64,000 nucleotides of DNA, taken from contig CAILEM010000008.1 of the NCBI GenBank assembly GCA_903833215.1, forward strand, positions 1 through 64,000. The letters are read 5' to 3'. The DNA comes from an uncultured Armatimonadota bacterium (lineage in GTDB: Bacteria > Armatimonadota > Fimbriimonadia > Fimbriimonadales > Fimbriimonadaceae). The position numbers and the translations under genes were made by a program. The notes under the pieces are model-generated. The model did not search any database, was not told the origin of the DNA, and saw only the letters and a list, made by a program, of their open reading frames with translations. Positions 36,387-46,677 of the stretch are shown here, piece after piece. Each line of letters starts with the position of its first letter. The stretch's first letter is position 1.

Positions 36387-36404
36387 TCTTTAGCATTTGA
36401 AAAT

Positions 36405-36443
36405 AAAAAAAGGGCCGCCAATATCTTGGCGGCCCTTTTTTTT
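36405..36443. terminator. Bidirectional terminator between the barrel gene and prcB
   Basis: Stem GGGCCGCCA / TGGCGGCCC with flanking A7 and T9 runs around a 6-base loop; it serves both converging genes. The prcB stop codon lies in its T-run. Confidence 0.93.
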
Positions 36444-37212
36444 ATTTGCCCTGATTGTTCAAGACAACATCAACGGCTACTCGCAACTGGAGTTCTGTCA
36501 ACTCGCGATTGCCATCACGATCGAGCACTCGAGCGATGGGAAGCATTTTGCTAAACCCGCCAGTTGCCGAATCGAGATCGGCGGCGATATCGAGCATCTG
36601 TAAACCATCTGCCAAAACATCTTCCAGCGGTCGTGTTTCGAACCTTCCCTTGATTCTGGCGATGTACTCAAACACGCCTCGAATACGTTCAGAACCCGAG
36701 CCAGCACAGGAATATGATCCGTTTTGGAACCGCGCGCCGGCTCCATCGAAGAAATAAACTCCAAATTCGTCTCGCTTTCGATCGTATGCAGCTACGATTG
36801 GGAGAAACAGTCCGATACCTTGCATCGCCATCGGGGCGTTGCCTGCAAGCGCACGCGAAATCTCCATCAGCTTGCCTTCCAGCGACATTTCAAGCATCAC
36901 CGTTCTTCGGTAGTACTTGAATGAGTGCTTAAGAAATCTGCAAACCTCAATTGAACGCGCGAAGGCACCAGAGATCGCCACAACAGTTGTGTCGTCAAGA
37001 GCAACTATTTTTTCAGCCTGGTCATACATGATCAGGTTTCCGGCGGTTGCTCGACGATCAGCAAGAGTTAATACACCTCCGTCGAACCGAAGGCACAGCA
37101 CCGTCGTCCCGTGCGTCTCAAATGCTGGATCGACACCCGCACTCCCCGCGATATATTTCTCTGCGTGGAAATTCGTTAGGTCGGCGAATTCGGTTAGCCC
37201 CACTGCGGTCAT
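36442..37212 (-). CDS. prcB: 20S proteasome beta subunit
   Basis: Catalytic beta subunit of a bacterial 20S proteasome, 256 residues. A 35-residue propeptide ends ETHG, and cleavage there would expose Thr36 of TTVLCLRF as the N-terminal nucleophile. The rest of the active site has the right spacing: Asp52 in LADRRATAGN (Thr1+16) and Lys68 in EKIVALDD (Thr1+32). SGSERIRGVFEYI and the acidic C-terminal region fit the fold. It overlaps UBact by four bases and is the last gene of the operon, followed by a terminator. No alpha-subunit gene follows, unlike the usual prcB-prcA order. Confidence 0.93.
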   Translation of the reverse strand: MTAVGLTEFADLTNFHAEKYIAGSAGVDPAFETHGTTVLCLRFDGGVLTLADRRATAGNLIMYDQAEKIVALDDTTVVAISGAFARSIEVCRFLKHSFKYYRRTVMLEMSLEGKLMEISRALAGNAPMAMQGIGLFLPIVAAYDRKRDEFGVYFFDGAGARFQNGSYSCAGSGSERIRGVFEYIARIKGRFETRPLEDVLADGLQMLDIAADLDSATGGFSKMLPIARVLDRDGNRELTELQLRVAVDVVLNNQGK

Positions 37213-37391
37213 TGCCCTGACCGCTGGCGGTATTTCTTCGCCTGATCAGGATCGATCTTCTTCATTCGCCGCATCAATTCATTTCCACCTTCGGGTTTGC
37301 GGATATCGGGCGCGCTAGGTCCCCCCTCATCCCCAGACTTCTGTCCAGGTTCGCGGGTTAACGGTCGCGTGAGTCTATCGCCATCGGTCAT
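37209..37391 (-). CDS. ubact: UBact, Pup-like protein modifier
   Basis: A 60-residue, highly charged, probably disordered protein matching UBact, the Pup-like tag described in some Gram-negative bacteria. The N-terminal half is Gly/Pro-rich (REPGQKSGDEGGPSAPD). The C-terminal half contains NELMRRMKKIDPDQAKKY and ends RQRSGQ. As with Pup ending in Gln, the terminal Gln would have to be deamidated to Glu by the adjacent Dop before ligation to lysines of target proteins. It is wedged between dop and prcB with four-base ATGA overlaps on both sides, which strongly supports the assignment despite its small size. Confidence 0.9.
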   Translation of the reverse strand: MTDGDRLTRPLTREPGQKSGDEGGPSAPDIRKPEGGNELMRRMKKIDPDQAKKYRQRSGQ

Positions 37392-38863
37392 TGAACACCT
37401 CTCAACATGCTGATAAAAGTTCCTACGTCGTTTGCCTGACTTAATTGCGGCGGATATTCGCCATTAGGTTTGAGATCGACCTCCACCGGGGCACCATCTA
37501 CACGAAACGTAAGTGTGCGCCAACAAACGCCAATCAAATCTTTCCTAAATTTTCGAATCGCAAGTCCCCTTGCGTAGGCCCGCGTTGGCTCGTTTACGCC
37601 TTCCAGGCAAGCGAGCAATTCGGTTGAATTCGGGCCCGCTTCGACTTCTCCCATCTGCACCAAAGCAGCGTGAAGACTCTCGTCTGGATCGACGTTATGA
37701 TATTCCAGATCGAATGATTTGAGCTGTGGATCCGCCCAAGAGGTCCCTTCACTCTCGATGAAGTCAGCGAGCATTGCTCGCTTGGCCGCCCAATCGACTT
37801 GGCGTTTGAATCGCGCGAAATTACCGTGCAAATCCTCTAACAATTCCCTGCTACTTGAAATCACCCACTTCATTTCCTCGTCGAGTTCTAGGAACCTTTC
37901 CCCGGCGGAAAAATAGGACTCTAGAATTTCTGGAGCGGTGGTCCAGCTACTTCGCTCCAACTCCACTCGGAATTGATACGATTGGTCACGACTGATATCC
38001 TGAAATGCCCTTACCGGGTCCTGAAATTGCCAGATGGGGGCTTGCCCCATTTCGCAGAGCGCCAGTGCCAATTTGATGAGCCCAACTTTCCTTGCCGTGG
38101 CAGCAGGAATCATATTTGCATCGCCACAGATCACATGGAGCCGAATCCAGTCCTGACCGTCGGAATGCGGCTCATCTCGCGTATTGAAAATGGGCCGCCT
38201 GTAAAGAGTTTCAGCGTTGGCTTTTTCTGAAATATGATCCGCTCGTTGGCTGAGTTGAAAATCCGCTGAACGGGAAGTTTCGCTTCCTACCTTGCCCGCC
38301 CCAACCAGGACCTGCCGGACAACCATCATCGGCATGACGGAGTTGTAAAGGCGATCAAATCCCACAGACCGTGGCACGAGGTACCCCTCATGGGTGCCGT
38401 AGGACGCTCCGTGAAAGTCCGTATTGTTCTTGTAGGCGCGGACTTCAATGCCTTCCCGTTCAGAAAACACCTTTAACGCGCGTTGTATGGCGATTTGGCC
38501 CGCGCAATCGTGATTTGCCAGTTCGAATATGGACCGACACTCTGGAGTCGCATATTCGGGATGTCCGTGATCGTTGTAAAAACGGGCCCCATTTGGAAGG
38601 ACACGATCCGAACGAATATCTTCGGCCTTGCCATAGGATCGCCCCGCATCGAACTTAGCGTCCTCGGGATCGAAGGCGAGGCTTGCCAGGCGAAACCCAC
38701 GCAGATCGGCACGGGGTGATTCGTATCGGTAGTCCCAACCAACAAGGCACTCGCCCGGGTAATCCCGAACGAGTGCCATTGCATCGTCTACCTGCTCCTC
38801 AGCACCTCTGCCTTCGACTAAGAGTCCGTACTCAGTCTCAATGCCAGCGAGGATTTTTCGCAC
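37388..38863 (-). CDS. dop: Dop-like Pup/UBact deamidase-depupylase
   Basis: A 491-residue member of the carboxylate-amine ligase family shared by Dop and PafA. The nucleotide/Mg site begins GIETEYGL. NGARFYNDHGHPEYATPEC, YKNNTDFHGASYGTHEGYL, FQLSQRADHI and NTRDEPHSD are family hallmarks. Dop rather than PafA is favoured by WDYRYESPRADLRGF near residue 43 and by the long C-terminal part (SWADPQLKSFDLEYHNV, RAYARGLAIRKF). Role: deamidating the UBact C-terminal Gln and removing UBact from targets. The start is GTG at 38863, overlapping the upstream stop as TAGTG. No separate PafA ligase is in the window, so a dual role cannot be excluded. Confidence 0.88.
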   Translation of the reverse strand: MRKILAGIETEYGLLVEGRGAEEQVDDAMALVRDYPGECLVGWDYRYESPRADLRGFRLASLAFDPEDAKFDAGRSYGKAEDIRSDRVLPNGARFYNDHGHPEYATPECRSIFELANHDCAGQIAIQRALKVFSEREGIEVRAYKNNTDFHGASYGTHEGYLVPRSVGFDRLYNSVMPMMVVRQVLVGAGKVGSETSRSADFQLSQRADHISEKANAETLYRRPIFNTRDEPHSDGQDWIRLHVICGDANMIPAATARKVGLIKLALALCEMGQAPIWQFQDPVRAFQDISRDQSYQFRVELERSSWTTAPEILESYFSAGERFLELDEEMKWVISSSRELLEDLHGNFARFKRQVDWAAKRAMLADFIESEGTSWADPQLKSFDLEYHNVDPDESLHAALVQMGEVEAGPNSTELLACLEGVNEPTRAYARGLAIRKFRKDLIGVCWRTLTFRVDGAPVEVDLKPNGEYPPQLSQANDVGTFISMLRGVQ

Positions 38864-40257
38864 TACAGTCTGAAGACGTAGAACGTTCCGTTGCTGAGTC
38901 CTGCCGCCGTCGCTGCTGCTGCCGAACCATCACCAGTGCTGTAGGCGAAAGTTCCGCTGCGAACCAAGTCAGGAGCTGTTGTCGCCGCACCCTGTGCGGT
39001 GTACAACTTGCTGACAGTTCCCGTCAGGGCACCGGCAGTTGAACCCGTCATGATGTCTATGACTGGATAGAGGCTGAAAGTTAGTGAGTCCAAATCTACG
39101 AATCCATAGTACAGGTTCGTGATGTTCGGAATCCCCGTTGCAGTCGTCGTTCCGTCCTGAGTGAACGCCACCATCTCCTGCATGTTGTTGTCGCTGCTGC
39201 TTGGGAGCGTGATTACATACGAACCCGCGCCAAGAGGCTTGCCATTCTGCTGGGTAAGGACAGTGCTGTGCTCTCTCCAGATACCTTGCAGCGCTACGAC
39301 CTTTGCCGTGAGTGTGATGTCCGTTGGGTTCAGCCCAACCAGAGAGTATGTTCCTGCGTGAGGCAACGTTCCACCAGGTCCGTTAAGGATGCCCGCATTA
39401 CCCAGATAGCCGCCAATTGGCTGCGTTGGGTCGGTTGCGAGAACCTCAAAGTTAGGTCCGGCACCGCTTGCTGCTCCTACGGCGTATACGTCACCGCTGA
39501 AGAACACACGAACTGCAGGAACGGCTGCAACACCAGTGGCAGTTGGAACCAGCGCTGGAATGCTGCCCGCGGGAAGCTTGTTGAGGTTGAACGAAATCAT
39601 ATCGCTCAAGAAACCTTGCATTGGGCTTGCTGCGGTAGCTCCATTTGCCTGGAGGAACTGCGTTTCGTTGTAGTCAATCTGCTGCGGATTCGTGGCATCG
39701 ACCGTAAACATGGAATCATCCACGAATACGGGCAAGCTGGTCGTTCGACCAGGGAACACTCGAACTGAAGCAGGATAAGTCTTCGGGAAGCCTGCTGGCT
39801 CCGGATGAACGACGAAGGCACCCATCACAGGCGAATCCGTCTCTTCATTGAACTGTAGAAAGTCGAGATTGAACGACGTAAACAGTCTTGAAGGAACTCC
39901 GACTGCTTGAGTCGAGAACGGAACATCCAAGTGGACGACGTTATTCTGATATCCACTCAAAACGCAGTTGGTCAACGGCGCAAGCGGATTCGTTACGTCA
40001 CCGTAGCTATCCCGGAAAATCAATCTTTGAACGACTGCAGTCAGGTCACCAATAGCTCGACCCTGACCGGTTAAGTATGCAATCTCAATTGCACCTGGAG
40101 GGGCCGCCGTTAGGCCCGTCAGCTTGATCTTAATGCCGACATTCGTTTTCGGTCCAGTACCACCACCGGCACCGCCCGCGTGGGTTCCGTTACCACTTCC
40201 ACCACAACCGACAGCCGCAATGGCAGCGGCAGCATACAAAAAGGCCCATTTCCTCAA
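38863..40257 (-). CDS. Secreted lipoprotein of unknown function, first gene of the UBact operon
   Basis: A 464-residue lipoprotein (signal ending AAIAAVGC, lipidated Cys18) with a Gly-rich spacer and then an all-beta domain: VGIKIKLTGLTAAPPGAIEIAYLTG, later LVGLNPTDITLTAKVVALQG and SYVITLPSSSD. The start resembles DUF4382-like surface proteins, but I do not claim the family firmly. It has a GAGG Shine-Dalgarno, and TATACT lies about 60 bases upstream on its strand. Its TAG stop overlaps the dop GTG by one base, so it is co-translated with the UBact machinery. Whether that is functional or incidental is unknown. Confidence 0.75.
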   Translation of the reverse strand: MRKWAFLYAAAAIAAVGCGGSGNGTHAGGAGGGTGPKTNVGIKIKLTGLTAAPPGAIEIAYLTGQGRAIGDLTAVVQRLIFRDSYGDVTNPLAPLTNCVLSGYQNNVVHLDVPFSTQAVGVPSRLFTSFNLDFLQFNEETDSPVMGAFVVHPEPAGFPKTYPASVRVFPGRTTSLPVFVDDSMFTVDATNPQQIDYNETQFLQANGATAASPMQGFLSDMISFNLNKLPAGSIPALVPTATGVAAVPAVRVFFSGDVYAVGAASGAGPNFEVLATDPTQPIGGYLGNAGILNGPGGTLPHAGTYSLVGLNPTDITLTAKVVALQGIWREHSTVLTQQNGKPLGAGSYVITLPSSSDNNMQEMVAFTQDGTTTATGIPNITNLYYGFVDLDSLTFSLYPVIDIMTGSTAGALTGTVSKLYTAQGAATTAPDLVRSGTFAYSTGDGSAAAATAAGLSNGTFYVFRL

Positions 40258-40575
40258 AATCCATTCACCTCGCGGACACGCTAGACTATGCTAGCCAGGC
40301 TTCCTGCCGAACAGTATAGCAATTTTAGCCGACGTTGTGTTCGACGCTTCAAGCAGGCTAAAAAGGTCACACATTCTTGAGTGACTTCATGATATTGGCT
40401 GAAGAAACTCACGTTCCGGCCACATTCGTTGGAAATTGTGCCGTGACCAGGGTTTCGCAACGATTTTATGGCCATTTGAGCGTCCTCCAAATCCTTCGAG
40501 AAATTCCCCAACCTAACTCGAAATTCGCCTTAACGGGTGAGATTCCTTGCACAAGGGTACAATCCACCCCACATC
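40258..40575. promoter_or_regulatory. Divergent intergenic region between the lipoprotein-dop operon and yceD-plsX-fabH
   Basis: About 318 bases without a credible gene. Minus-strand TATACT (complement of 40314-40319) probably serves the lipoprotein-dop operon, and + strand TACAAT (about 40558-40563) precedes the yceD ATG by about 13 bases. No good -35 boxes, repeats or riboswitch-like folds were recognised. Confidence 0.4.
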
Positions 40576-44568: not shown

Positions 44569-46677
44569 CTAACCCTTAGTTTTGACCCTAATTGTCTTGG
44601 TCTTGACCGATGATTTTGTCTTCGTTTCGGTGGACTTTCCGTAGACGACTTTGACGCTGTCCCCAACGATCTTAATGTCGCCGCCATTCACATAGACGAC
44701 GGTTGGCTTGGTATCGTGCAAGACTCGTACTTCGTGAACCTTAGGGTTGTCTTCGGTCACATATGTCGTCGTGGTTGTCTCGGTTGAGGGCTTCCCGTCG
44801 GCTTTGTGTGCAACTTTGTACTTGATGACCTTGACGTTCTTTGGAGAATCACCCACAGTCGTGAAAGTGATGTTCCCATCCGCCAACACGCCCTTAAGGT
44901 CATCTGACTTTAGCTCCTTCACGATCATTGCCGAACCTTTCGAATCATCGGTGGTGACGAAGACAGCATCGTCAGATTTTGTTGTGACCACAGTTTTGGA
45001 TTCTTTTGTTGCCTCCCCCTTGACTCGAATCTTTTTGGTCAAGGTGACGACTCCTGTTTTCGGATCCTTCTGAGCGTCAATCGTGACGGTCATGGGTTTT
45101 TCACTGTCTTGTTTGACTGTGAAGGAGTCTCCATTAACAGTAAAGGTCGCAGGGCCATCGTGCCCGGAATCGGTAGTCACCGTGGTCGTGATTCTATGCT
45201 CTTTCTTTTCACCGGGCTTAAGGTCATCGCTGTCTCTTGTTTCAACGAGCTCGATGTGTCGTCCGGGTAGATGATTTTTATCAAACTTGGTATCCCCGTC
45301 GACAGTTGTGATGAAAGTTGTTCCTTTGTCGCTCGGGTTAACTTGGACCTTCATGACCTTGCCAGTAGGATGTCCGTCGACCGTTAGGAACTTCGTATTG
45401 CCTTTAACCTTTATCACTTTCATGTCATCGCTTAGCTGCAGAAAAAGGGGTTCTGTCGTCTCGGACTTGGTCACTTTGCCGTCCTGGATTTTTACCACTT
45501 TGACCTGGACGACATGATCAGCCTTCTTGGCTCCCTGCTTCTGCGGCTTTTGAGTCACGACGACTGAGTGCGTCTTTTTGTCAAATTGAGCGTGAAGCTC
45601 GACCGTATCTTGCAGCGTGGGTGGATTTGGCGCGGCCACGATATGAGTTCCGCCAATGAGGGTGACCCCGGCGGCGAGGGAAATCGCCATAAGCGCTATG
45701 TGTCTGGTGTTCATTTTTGTTGTGAGTCTCCTTTGAGGGTCAAGCAATCCCTTCACCCGCTCTTCAAGTTTCCAAGCCCTTGTCATAAGGCCAACGGAGT
45801 TGGACGCGGTTAGGTGTCGGGGGGCAATGCCAAGGGCAACGGTTAGTAGCGTTGCCGCATATTGGGGTGCAGTCGTGACACGAAGAGCAACGTTATCGCA
45901 GACTTCTTCTCGAGCACGAACTAAATCGCGGTTCAGCAGGTGAACCAATGGGTGGGGCCAGTAACTTGCCTCAACGAGGCGCTGTATCACTCCGATCAGC
46001 GGATCGCGCTGCCGAACATGAGTCAGTTCGTGGGCCAACACGCAGCTCAACTGTTGGTCATTGAGTTGGTCAAGTAACTTCTCCGGCAGAATCACCATCG
46101 TGTTTCGTGGACCAACGACGACGGGACTATGAAGCTTTCGCGAAAATCGAATAGGCACGTTGGGCATCCCGCCGTTCTGAACCAGATACTGAATAGCAGC
46201 ATCAAGATTTGGGTGGTCCAGTGGCTGAGCCGACAACCTAAGTCGCTTGACCTTTCGCATCCCTGCCCCAAGCCTAAACAATAGAACCGCACTGCCTCCG
46301 ATCCAAATGAGAATCATGAGGCTCGCCGTACTTCTTGCTCTCTCGAGTGTCCAATAGTGAGTGTTTGATCGGCTCGAACTGGATCTCACTGGTGCAGCCA
46401 CGCCGGAGGAAACTTCTGGCCCGTTCGGGTGCTCGGATTCCAGCGAGATCTGCATCGTGTGCCAGCCGAGACGTTGCAGCCCAAGGGTTGTGAACGGCGC
46501 GACAAGGACACATGCTAGAGCGCACACACAAATTCCATGGCGTAAAGCCGCATTTTGGCGCGCTGCCATCCGACCAAATCCCAGTGCCACTAGGGTCACC
46601 AGTGTTATCTCGGCAAGCACCCGAACGATAAACGAAGCGATTTCATCGCCTGGATACATTTGTTGGAGCACATTCAT
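44569..46677 (-). CDS. BlaR1/MecR1-type M56 membrane metallopeptidase with long beta-rich tail
   Basis: A 702-residue antirepressor-type protease paired with BlaI. The first ~340 residues form the M56 membrane domain with hydrophobic helices near 15-32, 45-65, 117-137 and 330-347. The zinc motif is His216-Glu217 and His220 in VLAHELTHVRQRDP. Where BlaR1 carries a penicillin-binding sensor, this protein has ~350 extracytoplasmic residues rich in Lys, Thr, Val and Asp, with repeated strand units (VKVIKVKGNTKFLTVDGH, TVTTDSGHDGPATFTVNGDS). The signal it senses is therefore probably not a beta-lactam. Its ATG overlaps the blaI stop by four bases. Confidence 0.85.
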   Translation of the reverse strand: MNVLQQMYPGDEIASFIVRVLAEITLVTLVALGFGRMAARQNAALRHGICVCALACVLVAPFTTLGLQRLGWHTMQISLESEHPNGPEVSSGVAAPVRSSSSRSNTHYWTLERARSTASLMILIWIGGSAVLLFRLGAGMRKVKRLRLSAQPLDHPNLDAAIQYLVQNGGMPNVPIRFSRKLHSPVVVGPRNTMVILPEKLLDQLNDQQLSCVLAHELTHVRQRDPLIGVIQRLVEASYWPHPLVHLLNRDLVRAREEVCDNVALRVTTAPQYAATLLTVALGIAPRHLTASNSVGLMTRAWKLEERVKGLLDPQRRLTTKMNTRHIALMAISLAAGVTLIGGTHIVAAPNPPTLQDTVELHAQFDKKTHSVVVTQKPQKQGAKKADHVVQVKVVKIQDGKVTKSETTEPLFLQLSDDMKVIKVKGNTKFLTVDGHPTGKVMKVQVNPSDKGTTFITTVDGDTKFDKNHLPGRHIELVETRDSDDLKPGEKKEHRITTTVTTDSGHDGPATFTVNGDSFTVKQDSEKPMTVTIDAQKDPKTGVVTLTKKIRVKGEATKESKTVVTTKSDDAVFVTTDDSKGSAMIVKELKSDDLKGVLADGNITFTTVGDSPKNVKVIKYKVAHKADGKPSTETTTTTYVTEDNPKVHEVRVLHDTKPTVVYVNGGDIKIVGDSVKVVYGKSTETKTKSSVKTKTIRVKTKG

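Follow-up and report, generated by a model that had tools for sequence, protein, structure and literature searches.

We analysed a window of 64,000 nucleotides, the whole stretch taken from one contig of an uncultured Armatimonadota bacterium of the Fimbriimonadaceae. Four open reading frames on the minus strand occupy positions 36442-40257 and overlap by exactly 1, 4 and 4 bases, as the first-pass annotation had described. They encode a lipoprotein, a Dop-type enzyme, the small protein UBact and a proteasome beta subunit, and a terminator follows the last gene:

38863..40257, minus strand: lipoprotein gene, first gene of the operon, TTG start, 464 aa
37388..38863, minus strand: dop, GTG start, 491 residues, Dop-type PF03136 member by sequence
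37209..37391, minus strand: UBact gene, ATG start, 60 aa, C-terminus RQRSGQ, putative protein tag
36442..37212, minus strand: prcB, ATG start, proteasome beta subunit with Thr36/Asp52/Lys68
36396..36442 (about), minus strand: intrinsic terminator 3' of prcB, GGGCCGCCAA-GATA-TTGGCGGCCC followed by a T run

The terminator was missed by the automatic scan, probably through pairing of its T run with an A run, so the region 36390-36450 was folded directly, giving a strong hairpin with a fold energy z-score of -6.2 relative to shuffled sequence. The promoter scan of the minus strand upstream of the operon yielded no confident site and fewer matches than in shuffles. The upstream boundary is a divergent gene at 40537, presumably of DUF177 type, followed by genes presumed to be plsX and fabH. 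The lipoprotein gene is probably co-transcribed with dop-ubact-prcB. Elsewhere in the window (44569-46677), a 702-aa protein was detected, which by eye has a BlaR1/M56-like peptidase N-terminal part and a long charged Thr-rich C-terminal part.

The 60-residue protein had been proposed to be UBact, and the profile search bears this out: it scores 77.6 bits with PF20513 (Pfam, curated cut-off 27.8) and 75.9 bits with the NF033388 equivalog (NCBIfam, cut-off 35), UBact being the only family matched in Pfam and NCBIfam at E up to 1, with no match to a Pup family model. No match was found among solved structures. The C-terminus RQRSGQ has the form of the UBact family, RQRSG and then Q or E. The gene adjoins dop and prcB and a PafA-type ligase gene is present elsewhere in the genome; the predicted role of the tag is conjugation to protein lysines.

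The Dop enzyme belongs to PF03136 and scores 353 bits with TIGR03688 (Dop equivalog), below the cut-off of 492.3, and 262 with the PafA model; on sequence, it is filed in the Dop-type PF03136 branch and not as the TIGR03688 equivalog. Its best relative among solved structures is the Acidothermus Dop, the alignment spanning the Dop-loop and the catalytic-Asp region, and the protein has both the catalytic Asp motif and, between strands one and two, the Dop-loop. The Dop-loop is the feature telling Dop from PafA (PMC7947786), and this loop, along with a Dop score above the PafA score, agrees with the earlier description of a Dop-like enzyme, which would act as UBact deamidase and de-conjugase. 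One further PF03136 protein is encoded in the genome (contig C109, L004:1435-2895), below the NCBIfam equivalog cut-off. Its model scores alone are indecisive (306.7 for PafA, 283.4 for Dop), and it is called PafA because the Dop-loop is absent and the catalytic Asp is kept. INPKWE stands in this PafA in place of the INTRDEP of Dop proteins and actinobacterial PafA, a replacement common to the aligned PafA paralogues of the phylum as NPK or NPR (YPK in one); since INPKW[DE] replaces INTRDEP, the chemistry of the paralogue is assumed.

PrcB is filed by sequence as a PF00227 proteasome subunit, beta type. The best of all models is TIGR03690 (bacterial 20S beta equivalog) with 121.5 bits, its cut-off of 191.9 not being reached. 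Thr36, Asp52 and Lys68, said earlier to be intact, are all present and represent the catalytic Thr1, Asp17 and Lys33 set of PF00227 beta subunits. In the alignment with mature M. tuberculosis PrcB (2fhg_H), Thr36 falls on residue 1, which points to a 35-residue propeptide. The single PrcA-like protein of the genome (contig C83), also below its NCBIfam equivalog cut-off, retains the Lys of the motif KIYEIYDR, aligned with KISELYDR of M. tuberculosis PrcA.

The single Mpa-like ATPase (contig C97, L005:1357-3060) is likewise below the NCBIfam equivalog cut-off. Because all five proteins score below these cut-offs, Dop, PafA, PrcB, PrcA and Mpa are assigned by sequence to a diverged Gram-negative branch. 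The ATPase ends in RKSIV and has no C-terminal GQYL, the element that opens the proteasome gate in mycobacteria (PMC12288473, PMC8142254). Neither GQYL nor Tyr at position -2 was found among the 35 distinct Mpa tails of the phylum; the last two residues are aliphatic in every one of these tails, and RR or RK stands before them in most. The pattern [RK][RK]x[IV][IV], in place of GQYL/HbYX, is conserved behind a variable linker, suggesting that the Mpa of this phylum has a different, replaced docking tail, which is possibly new.

Taken together, the locus very probably encodes three parts of a UBact-proteasome system: its tag, the enzyme that trims this tag and the catalytic subunit of the proteasome. 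Dop would deamidate UBact, turning its last Gln into Glu. This Glu would then be joined to lysines of target proteins by the PafA paralogue, and Dop would also be able to take the tag off again. Binding of the tag by the Mpa ring would lead to the target being unfolded and threaded into a 20S core built from PrcA and PrcB, in which cleavage of the PrcB propeptide would leave Thr36 as the active N-terminal Thr. The first-pass annotation had judged a functional system very likely, and a working system does appear likely from the sequences, the remaining parts being present in single copy. Its term "complete" holds for the four genes of the operon and not for the system, as pafA, prcA and mpa each lie alone on other contigs of this 6.2 Mb, 168-contig genome.

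Of the four gene products of the operon, the lipoprotein is explained least and is the most specific to the family. It has the lipobox AVGC with Cys18, is mostly beta, and has no Pfam or NCBIfam match; none of the 20 family members scanned has a Pfam match either, and invariant motifs such as SGD are found among them. The AlphaFold2 model is of good quality (mean pLDDT 80, pTM 0.80) but gave no Foldseek match at E 0.001 or below. No function was read from the fold, as the best VIA-align hit (Z 6.3) covers the N-terminal beta-sandwich and falls in the range of common arrangements.

Full-length homologues of the lipoprotein were detected in 71 of 76 Fimbriimonadaceae genomes and in none of 161 genomes outside the family, 77 of which are UBact-positive. 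Within the 76, UBact and the lipoprotein occur together in 69, UBact only in 2, the lipoprotein only in 2 (genomes 87-89 percent complete) and neither in 3. The lipoprotein gene is the first operon gene in most relatives, mostly 0-25 bases from dop, and the order lipo-dop-ubact-prcB is found at 49 of the 80 loci of named records. In genomes G027 and G014 the gene stands beside dop with DUF177 and plsX absent within about 16 kb upstream, whereas in G005 it is beside plsX, with dop-ubact-prcB on another contig; the link between lipoprotein and dop is therefore strong, not absolute. In G005 mpa, too, lies next to plsX, with under 1 kb between it and the lipoprotein gene (L077:4775-8564). A lipoprotein-mpa link based on this proximity was dropped, since the genes flanking mpa there were not found at other mpa loci. 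In the sister family, the position directly upstream of dop is taken by a different gene, whose product of about 220 aa is likely exported (L163:6664-7332, L173:6813-7472, L062:9217-9876).

The lipoprotein could belong to the UBact system as a dedicated partner and not be a mere neighbour; it might, for instance, report envelope stress or have to be kept at a level that follows the proteasome. Its leading position close to dop, its restriction to the family, its persistence with dop where the DUF177-plsX-fabH neighbours are gone and the two reduced genomes lacking both it and UBact would all agree with this. Yet the G005 arrangement separates the two, genus g9 has UBact without the lipoprotein, other UBact loci of the phylum do without it, an exported product is at odds with a cytoplasmic proteasome, and the fold points to no function; we consider the partnership fairly unlikely. 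Being exported, the lipoprotein probably does not belong physically to the proteasome. As a family-restricted gene heading the operon in most relatives it is possibly new.

UBact itself was detected in 56 of 61 family genomes (one sample) and in 148 of 237 genomes of the phylum, in agreement with the earlier statement that UBact is known from Armatimonadetes. The order dop-ubact-prcB, with the three genes side by side, recurs at each of the 20 loci sampled in the family, so the small gene is conserved between dop and prcB in relatives. Of the 19 family genomes tested, 17 encode a pair of PF03136 proteins, a single prcA and a single mpa, at separate places, and the separation extends to single-contig chromosomes of Fimbriimonadaceae. 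In the other two, which are reduced genomes of 1.5 Mb from the same genus, every component is missing, UBact included. Other Armatimonadota classes carry a six-gene cluster, mpa-dop-ubact-prcB-prcA-pafA (e.g., L068, L070, L074, L161, L164). Because this cluster is widespread in other classes it is taken as ancestral, and the parsimonious reading is that it was split in Fimbriimonadaceae, where the lipoprotein gene would now lead the dop-ubact-prcB part. In genome G011 (L078:4674-6794) an opposite-strand 706-aa ORF between ubact and dop splits the operon.

The dispersal of the PrcA, PafA and Mpa genes in Fimbriimonadaceae might be taken to mean that UBact and Dop tag proteins without degradation and PrcB serves a separate proteasome. 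All components are single copy, kept together and lost together, and the six genes form one cluster in other classes, which makes tagging without degradation very improbable relative to the UBact-proteasome system proposed above.

Each of the 100 distinct UBact tails reads YRQRSG followed by Q (66) or E (34), although the pattern used for the search was looser, accepting K, E or any residue at three YRQRSG[QE] positions. The small ORF between dop and prcB is short, charged and of low complexity, as a chance reading frame might be, but the curated UBact model matches and the invariant YRQRSG tail across the phylum refute this explanation, which has virtually no chance of being right. A FastTree tree built from 101 Dop sequences requires 22 or more switches between Q and E tails (shuffled-label mean 29), and the UBact at L118 and those at L044 and L119 are identical over the last 51 residues bar the final Q or E. 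The C-terminal Gln, from which maturation by deamidation had been deduced, is thus one of two interchangeable states among close relatives. Deamidation remains a fitting reading for the Q forms, and only the view of Gln as a fixed feature falls, with 34 of the 100 tails ending in E. Free switching within an otherwise invariant tail is indirect evidence for deamidation of the Q forms by Dop, and by analogy with mycobacterial Pup these forms alone would need it.

With the Gram-negative UBact systems (PF20513, NF033388) the locus shares UBact between dop and prcB, the tail RQRSG[QE] and diverged Dop, PafA, PrcA, PrcB and Mpa; it differs in the scattered pafA, prcA and mpa and in the family-specific lipoprotein gene leading the operon. 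The six-gene clusters of other Armatimonadota have the same components and the same dop-ubact-prcB order, but with all six genes together and no lipoprotein. The C-terminus of Pup is GGQ. Shared with the actinobacterial Pup-proteasome are a small tag ending in Gln/Glu, a Dop with the Dop-loop, a PafA paralogue, a 20S core with a Thr active site and an Mpa-like ATPase, while the tag here lacks a Pfam Pup match and ends in SGQ, Mpa lacks GQYL and the components stay below the equivalog cut-offs.

Armatimonadetes proteasome subunits were already placed in a Gram-negative cluster (PMC5666114) and Dop/PafA homologues in armatimonadetes were already noted (PMC7947786), so that the core finding is already known. 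The UBact-proteasome finding is ordinary in kind, and the lipoprotein and the Mpa tail merit specialist attention. A bolder proposal joins the two, namely that the Fimbriimonadaceae have built a dedicated extracytoplasmic lipoprotein into the UBact operon, which puts envelope state and UBact-proteasome activity under joint regulation, and that Mpa docks to the 20S core via a new C-terminal tail, [RK][RK]x[IV][IV], not GQYL/HbYX; it is speculative, and we regard it as distinctly unlikely that both parts hold.

UBact systems are barely studied, and this case shows a Gram-negative tagging-proteasome cluster breaking up in one family with all parts kept in single copy. Closely related pairs with Q and E tails are available for testing deamidation, the ATPase of this branch, with its different conserved C-terminal tail, makes the docking mechanism directly testable, and the lipoprotein provides a defined family-restricted gene for deletion.
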